From positions 1 through 20,066 of the IMG/VR virus record IMGVR_UViG_3300006641_000248: a DNA stretch of 20,066 nt. One strand, given 5' to 3'. Positions 7,145-10,150 of the stretch are shown here, piece after piece. The translations under genes and the position numbers were made by a program. Numbering within the stretch: the stretch's first letter is position 1; each line of letters opens with the position of its first letter. The notes beneath the pieces are model-generated. The model ran no database searches and was not told the DNA's origin. It worked only from the letters and a program-made list of their open reading frames with translations. This DNA is from a virus.

Positions 7145-10100
7145 ATGTCTGAAGCTGCTAAGCTCAGGGAAATGATGAAAGCCAAGGCCAAGCGCCTTGC
7201 ATCCGGTGATCCCAAGCAGAAGGTCGACTCTTCGTCTTGGACGCCGCCGGAAATGCTGGAAGCCGACGTTAAGACGGGCATGCGCCCGCTGTCGCGCCGC
7301 GCCTACAAGAAAGGTGGCAAAGTCGTCGGTAAGGTTGCGGGCAAGAACGCCCCGATGCGCGCCGACCGTAAGCGTCGTAAGGCCGGTGGTGAGGTCGGTG
7401 AGGCCGAAGCCTTTGCGAACGCTAAAGTGAATCGTAACCTTAAGAACGCTAACCAGCTGCGCGAAGGCAAGAAGCACGTTGGCGGGTTTAAGAAGGGCGG
7501 AAAGGCACCGAACGCGGAAGCCGATCCGGATATGCCGAACCAGATCACGACGGAAGAATATCGTCGCTTGCTGGAAAAGCGTCAGTCGACGCAGGGTGGC
7601 GAGCCTCAGGCTTCCGATCTGTACACCAAAGAGCAGCTTGAGCGTCTGGAGCGTGGTTATAAGAAAGGTGGTCGCCCGAAGAAGTTCTCCGGTGGCGACG
7701 TTCTTAAGCTTCTCAGCCCGGTCGCGATGCTCGCCAGTCTTGGCGAAGACGACAAGGACAAGAAGTGCTACGGTGGTCGCAACAAGCGCAAGTCGGGTGG
7801 CCGCACGAAGCGCGCTGACGGCGGGTTGCTCAACGATCCGCGCACGGCGGGCAACGCGATTCTTCAGAATTCGGCCATGGCGGCGGGTGTCCCGCAGGAC
7901 GCTCTCTCGTTCGCTCCGGCCATGCCTTCGCAGGGTATCAAGAAGTTCCTTGGCCTTAAGAAGGGCGGCAAGGTCAGCCACATGGAGTGGGAACACTCCA
8001 AAAAGGATCTTGCGCAGGACAAGAAGCTCGCTAAGAAGCATGGCATGAGCATGGAGGCTTGGGAAAAGTCCGAAATGGACGCCAAGCACGACAAGCAGCA
8101 GTCGACGAAGGGCCTCAAGAAGGGTGGCCGCAGCAAGGCTGGTGGTGGCGTCCTTTCGGACCCGGCACTGATGGCTGGTATGTCACAGATGCACCAGCGC
8201 ACCTCTGGTCGCAAGGCTGGCGGCAAGGCTCTCAGTGGCCAGATGCAGGGCACTCGCCCGACGGGTGGTCGTCTCGCTCGCGCTGAAGGTGGTACCACCG
8301 GTCAGGCGGCGGCGGATGCGAGAAACCGTTCTCAGTTCATGTCTCATTTGCAGCAGCGGATGCAGAACCCTGCTGTGATGGCGCAGTCTGATAAGATGTC
8401 CGCTCTGAAGAGCCAGATGGATTATCTTACCAAGAATCCCAACGCCACGGGACGTGATGTAAAGCAGTACTTTAATACGATGGCGGGTCGTGGCCCGGAT
8501 GCAGCTAGAGGAAGAGCCGGTAACCCTCAGGGCCAGCGTGGACCGATGCAGGGCGCTCCTCAGGGCTCCATGCAGGGCGCTCCTAAGGCCAAGAAGGGTG
8601 GTCGTATTAAACGCGCCGATGGTGGGGTGATGCCGACGACTGCAACGGCAAACACGGCTGCACCTACAACGACCAATACGGCTGCACCTACGACAGCGAC
8701 GACAGCTACGACTACCAATAAACCGGCGAATCCAGTGGCTACGACAGCTACTACTGCGACGACTACGGCGGCTACCAATCCTAATCAGCAGAGACTGGAA
8801 CGTCGTAACGCTGCTAAAAAGGAGGCCACGGATCGTCGCGAAGCTCGCAAAGCTGCGCGTATGGAACGCCGTACCAGTGGTAAATCAGCGACTGGCACCA
8901 CTGCGACCGCTACGGACGCCACTACTAAGACGGCGGATGCTGAGTCGAAGTTCAAGCACTCGAATCGCTACGGTTCGGCGCTGATGCTCCCGGCTAAGAA
9001 GGGTGGTCGCATCCAGAAATTCGGTGGTGGCGCTCTTGGATACGCTGAAGGTGGTAAGCCGGGGATGGGTGGACAGCAAGCTCGTCCGCAAGCCTCTATG
9101 GGTAACGCTCAACGCATGCCTAACCAGTCTCGTCCAAAGCAGTCTGGTGTCGGTCAGCCGCAAGTTTCGCCTCCGCCGCCGACCAGCCCTTATCAGCCGG
9201 GTGGTGGTTTGCCGACGCAGGACACGTCTGTTCAACCGTATAACGGTCAGCCCGTTAACGGTGTGACGAGTGGGTTTAACCAACCACAAATTCAGCAGCC
9301 GCAGTTACAGCCTTGGCAACAGCAGATGATGCAGCAGCAGGAGGCCCTTCAGCAGCAGTATCAGCCGCAAATGCAGGCTTATAATGATCAGATGCAGGCG
9401 ATGTTCGGTAACTATGCCCCGACTCCGGGTTCGCCCGGATTTGATCAGCTTCAGCAAATGATGCAGAATCAGCCTTCTTGGATGTCTGATTTGCAAAAAC
9501 AGCAGCAGGCTATCGCTCAGCAGTATCAGCCGCAGATGGATGCCTATAATTCTCTGATGAGACAGCAATCCCCGATGGGGATTGGTAGCTACGCGGTTCA
9601 GCAAGCCATGGGCCAGACTCCGCCTCCGCCGTCAGGTGGTTATCTGGCTTCGCAGGGTTACTCACCTATTGCGCAGGGCGGGTTCATGGGTACCCAGCCG
9701 CAGTTCAACACGGGCGGTCGTGTTGCCCGCAAGTCGGGTGGTAAGACCAAAGCTGGCAAGACGAACATTAACATCGTCATTGCCAGCAAGGCTCCGGGCG
9801 ACCAGACGGGCATGCAGCAGCCGATGCCGCCCGCTCCGCCTCCGGGTGGCCCCGGCGCTCCTCCGCCCATGGGCGGCGCTCCGGGCATGCCTCCGATGCC
9901 CCCGCCGCCCCCGATGGGTGGTCCGGGCCCGATGATGCGCGGTGGCCGTGCGTACCGTTCCTATAAGGACATGGACGCCGGTGCTGGTTCGGGCATGGGT
10001 CGCCTTGAGAAGACCGAAATTGCCAAGCGTACTGCCCACAAGGCGGGTGGCAAGATCTATCGGTCTTACAAAGACATGGACGCTGGTGCCGGTTCCGGCC

Positions 10101-10150
10101 TTGGCCGTCTGGAGAAGACTGAAATTCAGTCTCGCAAAAAGGGTTCTTAA
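7145..10150 (+). CDS. Large basic low-complexity protein with K-x-G-G motif array; probable virion-associated protein of unknown function
   Basis: This is a 1001-residue protein with a good AGGAG site at about 7131-7135. It has 13 K-(K/A/S)-G-G motifs (first residues at 55, 79, 116, 173, 216, 272, 325, 331, 357, 483, 618, 863 and 966). It also has ADGG or AEGG at 224, 380, 491 and 634. Between them are short helical charged stretches. Residues about 497-548 are a Thr/Ala linker. Residues about 712-810 are Gln-rich, with a 19-residue unit repeated ([15 protein letters not shown] and [15 protein letters not shown]). Residues about 892-928 are Pro/Gly/Met-rich. The end holds two 35-residue copies beginning [14 protein letters not shown] at 937 and 972. 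No enzyme domain is visible. The strong positive charge suggests nucleic-acid or capsid-interior contact. Codons are dominated by CGT, GGT and GCT, as in highly expressed genes. I know similar K-x-G-G proteins occur in environmental phages, but not what they do. Confidence 0.85.
   Translation: [1001 protein letters not shown]
9953..10147 (+). repeat. Tandem 105-bp (35-residue) coding repeat, two copies
   Basis: Copy one starts at 9953 and copy two at 10058. Both encode [14 protein letters not shown], then MG or LG, then RLEKTEI. The second copy ends at the C-terminus of the 1001-residue protein. The nucleotide copies differ at many third positions (for example tataaggacatgg against tacaaagacatgg). 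The duplication is therefore old or kept by selection at the protein level. Confidence 0.9.

Follow-up and report, generated by a model that had tools for sequence, protein, structure and literature searches.

A modular KGG protein in a phage head module shares a fixed-register GG motif with polyvalent and DNA-ejection proteins

The IMG/VR virus record IMGVR_UViG_3300006641_000248 (positions 1 to 20,066, a fragment; hereafter the window) carries, between its portal gene and its genes for GroES, scaffold and capsid, an open reading frame (ORF) for a 1001-residue basic protein with an isoelectric point (pI) of 10.3, which we call the KGG protein after its recurring K-x-G-G motifs. The original prediction, made from the letters of the window, had placed this protein in a phage head module, in agreement with its slot, and most relatives with flanking sequence keep the same position between portal/polyvalent genes and GroES/scaffold/capsid genes. 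The protein is a string of short modules (M1 to M6) split by K-x-GG linkers, many of which form fixed-register composites, K-x-GG-R-x-K/R-K/R-x-D/x-GG. The GG-x6-GG composite also lies between the domains of polyvalent and DNA-ejection proteins and hardly elsewhere in the genomes examined, suggesting as our main result that the motif is a mark of proteins which, judged by their annotation, pass from the virion into the host.

The 13 K-(K/A/S)-G-G motifs and the Arg or Lys residues that flank them, both reported in the original prediction, far exceed chance: K[KAS]GG, starting at residues 55, 79, 116, 173, 216, 272, 325, 331, 357, 483, 618, 863 and 966, compares with a mean of 0.40 and a maximum of 4 in 5000 composition shuffles, and [KR]xGG[KR] occurs 11 times against 0.37 expected. 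The irregular distances also described there hold among these 13 motifs, whose gaps range from 6 to 245 residues, but not for GG pairs, which favour a fixed 8-residue spacing (GG-x6-GG, 9 against 1.7 expected, with none of 10,000 GG-token shuffles reaching 9). A[DE]GG is present four times against 0.14 expected in composition shuffles, and the ADGG that had been seen shortly after K-x-GG turned out to be the second half of a composite motif with this 8-residue register, the basic form of which, GG[RK]xx[KR]xxGG, accounts for seven pairs against 0.04 expected. Spacing 8 was likewise enriched in a set of 22 proteins that includes the 1001-residue one (56 against 14 expected) and in 69 dereplicated KGG-rich ORFs (166 against 54 expected, with a maximum of 72 in 200 shuffles). 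The consensus of the 22-protein set is hydrophobic-K-x-G-G-R-x-K/H-K/R-A-D-G-G, which in the 1001-residue protein becomes K-x-GG-R-x-K-K-x-D-GG. As for conservation of the motif spacing in homologues, on which the original prediction had made a packaged or processed role depend, linker positions vary and the internal 8-residue register is strongly conserved. Chance or low complexity as the source of the motif is ruled out by these shuffles together with permuted and deletion controls.

The codons of KKGG vary freely within and between genes (AAG/AAA, GGC/GGT, CGC/CGT/AAG/AAA), indicating that the constraint acts at the protein level. As a separate observation, the first Gly of KKGG[RK] is encoded by GGC or GGT at all 103 distinct sites, although ~16% of the Gly codons of these KGG genes are GGA or GGG, perhaps reflecting avoidance of AAGGGG/AAGGGA.

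That no domain explains the protein, as originally stated, held in our searches, with no Pfam-A or PHROGs family at E<=0.1, and PDB sequences gave no match to the 1001-residue protein, module M4 or the upstream protein. Three features go beyond the original prediction, namely the build of the protein as a mosaic of modules, the precise form of the composite motif and the occurrence of that motif in other proteins. An alignment of 20 sequences had a mean column identity of 22%, with G57-58 and G118-119 among the few invariant columns, and the relatives are mosaics in which short conserved modules recur in varying combinations and the intervening stretches differ in sequence and length. Outside M1 to M6, the relatives contain further modules, namely M7 (KWIQxAIKxPGALRK) and DUF6496, and some modules also exist as free genes, including DUF6321 in the window and M7 at G002:149-499. 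M2 recurs in the small KGG gene at 14617-14892 (47% identity over 34 residues, E 6e-5, without composition correction), the core of M5 is KGKTNINI, and M4 is under purifying selection (nonsynonymous, pN, 0.10; synonymous, pS, 0.73). Composite motif 6 may be compared with KKKGGVIQKFRGGG in gp40 of the cultured pelagiphage HTVC115P.

An AlphaFold model built on the alignment predicted mostly disorder, with 695 of the 1001 residues having a predicted local distance difference test score (pLDDT) below 50, interrupted by helical beads at M4 and at residues 386-446, 546-578 and 723-808, so that the predicted architecture is one of beads on a string. M4 reached a pLDDT of ~95 in the full-length model and ~60 when folded alone with fewer sequences; the higher value is therefore not to be over-read, and the fold is not settled.

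Table 1. Features of the KGG protein and of the surrounding head genes in the window (residue numbers refer to the 1001-residue protein; A3, alignment of 20 sequences).
Feature	Coordinates	Strand	Remarks
Large terminase	269..1915	+	PF17289 E 2.3e-5
Portal protein, SU10 type	2386..4860	+	PF23899 E 9.9e-13; phrog_1216 E 4.8e-28
738-residue protein in polyvalent-protein slot	4860..7076	+	YADGG near C-terminus; N-terminal helix SLEQALQIAQQAK; internal twin-arginine-like segment
KGG mosaic protein	7145..10150	+	ATG start, 1001 residues, pI 10.3, 13 K[KAS]GG
Module M1, residues 1-52	7145..7300	+	N-terminus, begins with helix; M1, R8, V27, D28, S30, T44, G45, R47, P48 invariant (A3)
Module M2, residues 55-82	7307..7390	+	Starts KKGGKVVGK; GG57-58 invariant (A3)
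Module M3, residues 86-119	7400..7501	+	N96, A102, N103, G108, H111, G113, G118, G119 invariant (A3)
Composite motif 1, residues 173-184	7661..7696	+	
Composite motif 2, residues 208-219	7766..7801	+	
Composite motif 3, residues 216-227	7790..7825	+	
Module M4, residues 268-329	7946..8131	+	Predicted helical bead, KKGG on either side
Composite motif 4, residues 372-383	8258..8293	+	
Composite motif 5, residues 483-494	8591..8626	+	
Composite motif 6, residues 618-629	8996..9031	+	
Gln-rich predicted helical region, residues 723-808	9311..9568	+	pLDDT 83-97
Composite motif 7 (residues 855-866), then module M5 and Pro-rich tract	9707..9784	+	K869, K872, I877, I879 at least 90% conserved
Module M6 copy 1, residues 935-962	9947..10030	+	Side-by-side reading of relatives, alignment
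Module M6 copy 2, residues 970-1001	10052..10147	+	Side-by-side reading of relatives
GroES-like co-chaperonin	10453..10842	+	PF00166 E 1e-6; phrog_3188 E 2.9e-13
Probable scaffolding protein, acidic (net charge -16)	10836..11750	+	Inferred from position and composition
Major capsid protein, Mu gpT-like	13097..14011	+	PF10124 E 4.1e-6
Small KGG gene, 91 residues, 3' of capsid gene	14617..14892	+	Shares M2; same slot in L005, L009, L012, L015, L026, L034
DUF6321 gene, 87 residues	14939..15202	+	PF19846 E 4.7e-20

A homology-free search of 2.9 million viral contigs for the pattern GGR[VI]G[FY]ADGG returned 89 stretches, whereas a control that reversed the interior order of these codons returned none and the pattern with one residue removed, though less specific, returned two. 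The carrying ORFs are large, 71 of the 80 that were read having at least 400 residues. Among 48 dereplicated carriers, 15 matched 'DNA ejection protein', a PHROGs name that is an annotation and a share (phrog_4287) not compared with the base rate among random large virion proteins, and the others included ART-PolyVal (4), InPase (4), LPD23 (2), phage tail lysozyme (4), SLT_3 (2) and tape measure (3) matches together with virion structural and minor head families, several of the matches being to peptidoglycan hydrolases. No replication family is among the families listed for these carriers, 25 from PHROGs and 14 from Pfam. Across the 416 ORFs of seven long genomes, GGRxx-type composites were found in the KGG protein, in polyvalent proteins and in large ejection proteins, the few other matches being glycine-rich or GG pairs without the R core.

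The ejection proteins of KGG-bearing genomes matched phrog_4287 in G003 (1.8e-34), G006 (2.3e-17), G002 (6e-15) and MW202675 (2.5e-14), and GG-x6-GG occurs five times in the protein of G003, five times in that of G002 and once in that of G006. SLT domains are present in some of these ejection proteins and also in the one of SU10 that has transglycosylase activity (PMC9509320). The polyvalent and ejection versions of the motif keep the register and lose most of the basic residues, as in GGVAGYATGG and GGRVGYADGG. Separately, PQ492659.1 (L279), Limnohabitans phage DC33, is filed under Inoviridae, yet its 39-kb genome encodes a 3125-residue protein, and it looks like a tailed phage misassigned in taxonomy.

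In relatives, the gene upstream of the KGG gene often encodes a large protein with polyvalent domains, such as ART-PolyVal in L027 (2e-52) and InPase in MW202675 (2.4e-47), and ADGG or ARGG linkers sit at the domain boundaries, exemplified by the 1444-residue polyvalent protein of L027 (5594-9925), in which such linkers separate four ART-PolyVal stretches. Polyvalent proteins with ART-PolyVal/InPase-type domains are predicted to be packaged and injected (PMC5512222). The 738-residue protein that occupies this slot in the window matches the same-slot proteins of L031, L032 and L023 over residues 93-182; no polyvalent domain was recognised in it with Pfam or PHROGs, a modelled EEIQSD domain was not significant, and a search for close relatives returned a duplicate contig only. 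At residues 222-242 this head-module protein contains an internal twin-arginine-like signal, SRRGFLQGAGATVAAAA, with 24.0 bits to TAT_signal (PF10518) against a cut-off of 22.7. In a marine phage family (L190, L195, L204 and others) the sequence is ADGGRIGFADGGMSRRTFLK, in which a segment resembling a twin-arginine translocation (TAT) signal comes immediately behind the composite motif.

Many upstream-slot proteins have a helix matching [IV]xxAL(R)xA(R/K) at one of their termini, in many cases immediately following GG. This pattern, which was derived from part of the same data, is found at 7 of 27 N-termini of slot proteins against 8 of 719 in other genes, and at 18 of 47 C-termini against 15 of 736. 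C-termini collected later (L105 onward) have it in 7 of 21 cases; the enrichment test used 7 of 20, so that its exact p-value of 4e-7 is approximate. The recurrent GG-x(2-8)-[IV][DN]xALR[LIM]A[KR] helix, seen in polyvalent-slot proteins at N-termini, at C-termini and internally (L015 6465-9518; L135, L140, L142, L160, L170, L175), is a possible packaging tag.

Taking these observations together, we favour, as a reading evenly poised between right and wrong, that the KGG protein is a mosaic, largely disordered and strongly cationic cargo protein, internal to the head and ejected, in which the GG composites are linkers and, at the same time, a linear motif common to cargo proteins that serves their docking. 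The conserved gene slot and the occurrence of the GG motif in ejection and polyvalent proteins make a packaged role a fitting one; among the options of the original prediction, a cargo-loading tag, unproven as it is, matches the data best. Presence in the virion, a docking partner and action of the beads in the host are the parts that we infer. The protein would be made late, enter the procapsid together with the neighbouring polyvalent protein, and exit via portal and tail along with the DNA, its GG linkers keeping the chain flexible enough for threading. The exact composite would act as a short linear motif docking cargo proteins on a common virion partner, possibly the acidic scaffold, the portal or packaged DNA, and the conserved beads might afterwards work in the host, each as a small unit by itself.

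Several points weigh against this cargo reading. For the KGG protein itself there is no match to any ejection or polyvalent family, and the shared motif could reflect common flexible-linker ancestry rather than docking. The window is a fragment, so that the phage's own ejection protein is not inspectable, and virion proteomics was found for no carrier, one uncultured record being the only relative in GenBank. In addition, the motif is largely absent from the cultured phages phiGT1 and HTVC035P (slot proteins or annotated internal virion proteins), which shows that it is not required for ejection in general. In phiGT1, gp4 and gp5 are the proteins encoded between portal and scaffold.

A broader proposal, which we put forward tentatively and consider rather doubtful, is that GG-[R]-[VIAT]-x-[KYF]-[A]-[DE]-GG is a short linear motif not described before, by which proteins otherwise unrelated (polyvalent effectors, DNA-ejection proteins and KGG mosaics) are directed into the phage head or processed there, and that it forms, with the terminal xxALxxA[RK] helix, a general cargo code. 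How phages choose the proteins that are loaded into the head and injected is understood in very few systems, and a strict-register 10-residue motif in ejection, polyvalent and KGG proteins would point to a common loading or processing step. If such a code existed, the injected proteins of uncultured phages would be predictable from sequence alone, and the KGG protein would be a string that delivers a large number of tiny effectors together. A definable architecture is also gained for hundreds of KGG genes that lack annotation, in which beads (M4, M7, DUF6321, DUF6496) are told apart from linkers.

Among the closest known systems, phage polyvalent proteins (ART-PolyVal PF18760, InPase PF18823, LPD domains; Iyer et al. 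2017, PMC5512222) resemble the KGG protein in that they are multi-module, mosaic, encoded beside portal and capsid genes and joined by GG composite linkers, and in relatives one of them is the upstream gene product. By contrast, enzymatic domains are absent from the KGG protein, whose beads span 30-60 residues in an otherwise disordered chain; a polyvalent protein is defined by at least two domains that are disparate enzymes or of known polyvalent type, and Pfam and PHROGs recognised none in it, though it does share their place among late virion genes with portal/terminase packaging. By analogy, it may work like a miniature polyvalent protein. The main text of PMC5512222 makes no mention of glycine, linkers or KGG. 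Podophage DNA-ejection or internal virion proteins (phrog_4287; SU10 gp20-24, PMC9509320) are linked to the KGG protein by the GG-x6-GG composites of phrog_4287 relatives in KGG-bearing genomes, a membership test that is proposed here and is not an accepted one, and by the SU10-type portal common to the window phage and SU10, which makes the former an SU10-portal-type phage (PF23899). The KGG protein has no sequence homology to phrog_4287, and the window record gave no match to that family.

The KGG hydrophilins (PF10685, GsiB/Con-10 type) also have a recurring K-G-G in a hydrophilic protein, but their 22-residue profile matched none of seven records at E<=10, while the control was positive in 6 of 14 genomes, which excludes this family. 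DUF6321 (PF19846) and DUF6496 (PF20106) occur free or fused beside KGG/ADGG linkers and are comparable as modules only, neither lying within the 1001-residue protein. The internal proteins of T4 bear a capsid targeting sequence, a single N-terminal signal, and undergo cleavage by the prohead protease. They would work alike if the composite were a loading signal; the KGG motif differs in being internal and repeated, and no S78, S49 or ClpP-type protease was found in 12 records.

It is improbable, though the best placed of the alternatives, that the GG motifs are pure flexible spacers, separating modules and allowing unfolding and threading through the tail with no partner to read them. None of the 35 GG pairs lies within a predicted helix of the AlphaFold model, M4 is bracketed by GG in 66 of its 67 distinct copies, and ejection proteins must traverse the portal channel partly unfolded (PMC8954989). 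However, generic linkers need no fixed register, whereas the composite keeps its 8-residue spacing and its residue identities, and removing a residue or permuting the interior nearly abolishes its occurrence in the 2.9 million contigs.

Less probable still is a genome-contact role, in which the basic motifs would attach to the packaged DNA, or to RNA once entry has taken place, much as a viral condensing protein does. The charge of these proteins agrees with such contact: the pI exceeds 9.6 in all 69 KGG proteins, their median charge per 100 residues is +8.4 against -0.9 for other proteins, and most composites have K at -2, R at +2 and K/R at +5. The acidic scaffold and the portal are equally plausible partners, however, and the carriers other than KGG proteins hold the register without most of the basic residues, so that DNA contact cannot be the general role of the motif; judging from composition, it is possible for the KGG protein.

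Only slightly behind, and likewise quite unlikely, is a polyprotein from which a protease releases the beads by cutting at GG. GG-specific maturation is known from adenovirus and African swine fever virus, the modules are found as free genes as well as in fusions, the boundaries between modules are where GG is located, and one marine family has the TAT-like SRRTFLK directly after ADGG. Cutting by a maturation protease, an option of the original prediction, found no backing, as no S78, S49 or ClpP-type protease was detected in 12 records, one of them a complete genome, with positive controls; a search for Peptidase C48/adenain-type enzymes was also negative, but its positive control was silent too, and a host protease or one of an unfamiliar type might do the cutting.

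We regard as very unlikely an assembly factor absent from the mature virion, either a scaffold partner or a cargo chaperone. Its slot adjoins the GroES and acidic scaffold genes, and a net charge of ~+81 (sum of blocks) faces -16 for the scaffold, but the motif is common to proteins that, by annotation, reach the host, and KGG relatives have DUF6496 modules beside slot proteins with DUF6321. It is scarcely credible, in spite of the strong module mosaicism, that the KKGG codons serve as a site of recombination or shuffling and yield the peptide as a by-product, since free codon variation places the conservation at the protein level.

Relatives of the 1001-residue protein are encoded at 34 viral loci, and M4 is present in at least 283 viral contigs and in one of 84,980 prokaryote species genomes. 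A prophage or bacterial gene is ruled out, as the contig of this sole match, L103, proves to be a phage head module within a metagenome-assembled genome of Verrucomicrobia; a plasmid search gave no match. Searching with the basic composite written as a DNA pattern gave 49 viral stretches. At the 48 new loci that were read, every carrier ORF has at least three K-x-GG-type motifs and most have at least seven, and a second KGG protein type in this set directly follows the gene for a capsid-like product, the slot of 14617-14892 in the window.

DUF6321 is fused into slot proteins via ADGG linkers in L015 and L021. As observations on this domain in its own right, GenBank holds 504 phage records that contain it, for the most part of cyanophages and pelagiphages, and it adjoins capsid genes in pelagiphage HTVC115P. 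Among the papers searched, none mentions DUF6321 or DUF6496, and pairing 'phage' with 'KKGG' returned phage-display peptides only; the S-SCSM1 paper counts 13 virion proteins of unknown function and, in the passages covered, does not name DUF6321. Further along the window, at 16762-18600, a 612-residue protein has long collagen-like G-P-T repeats and is probably a tail fibre or appendage.

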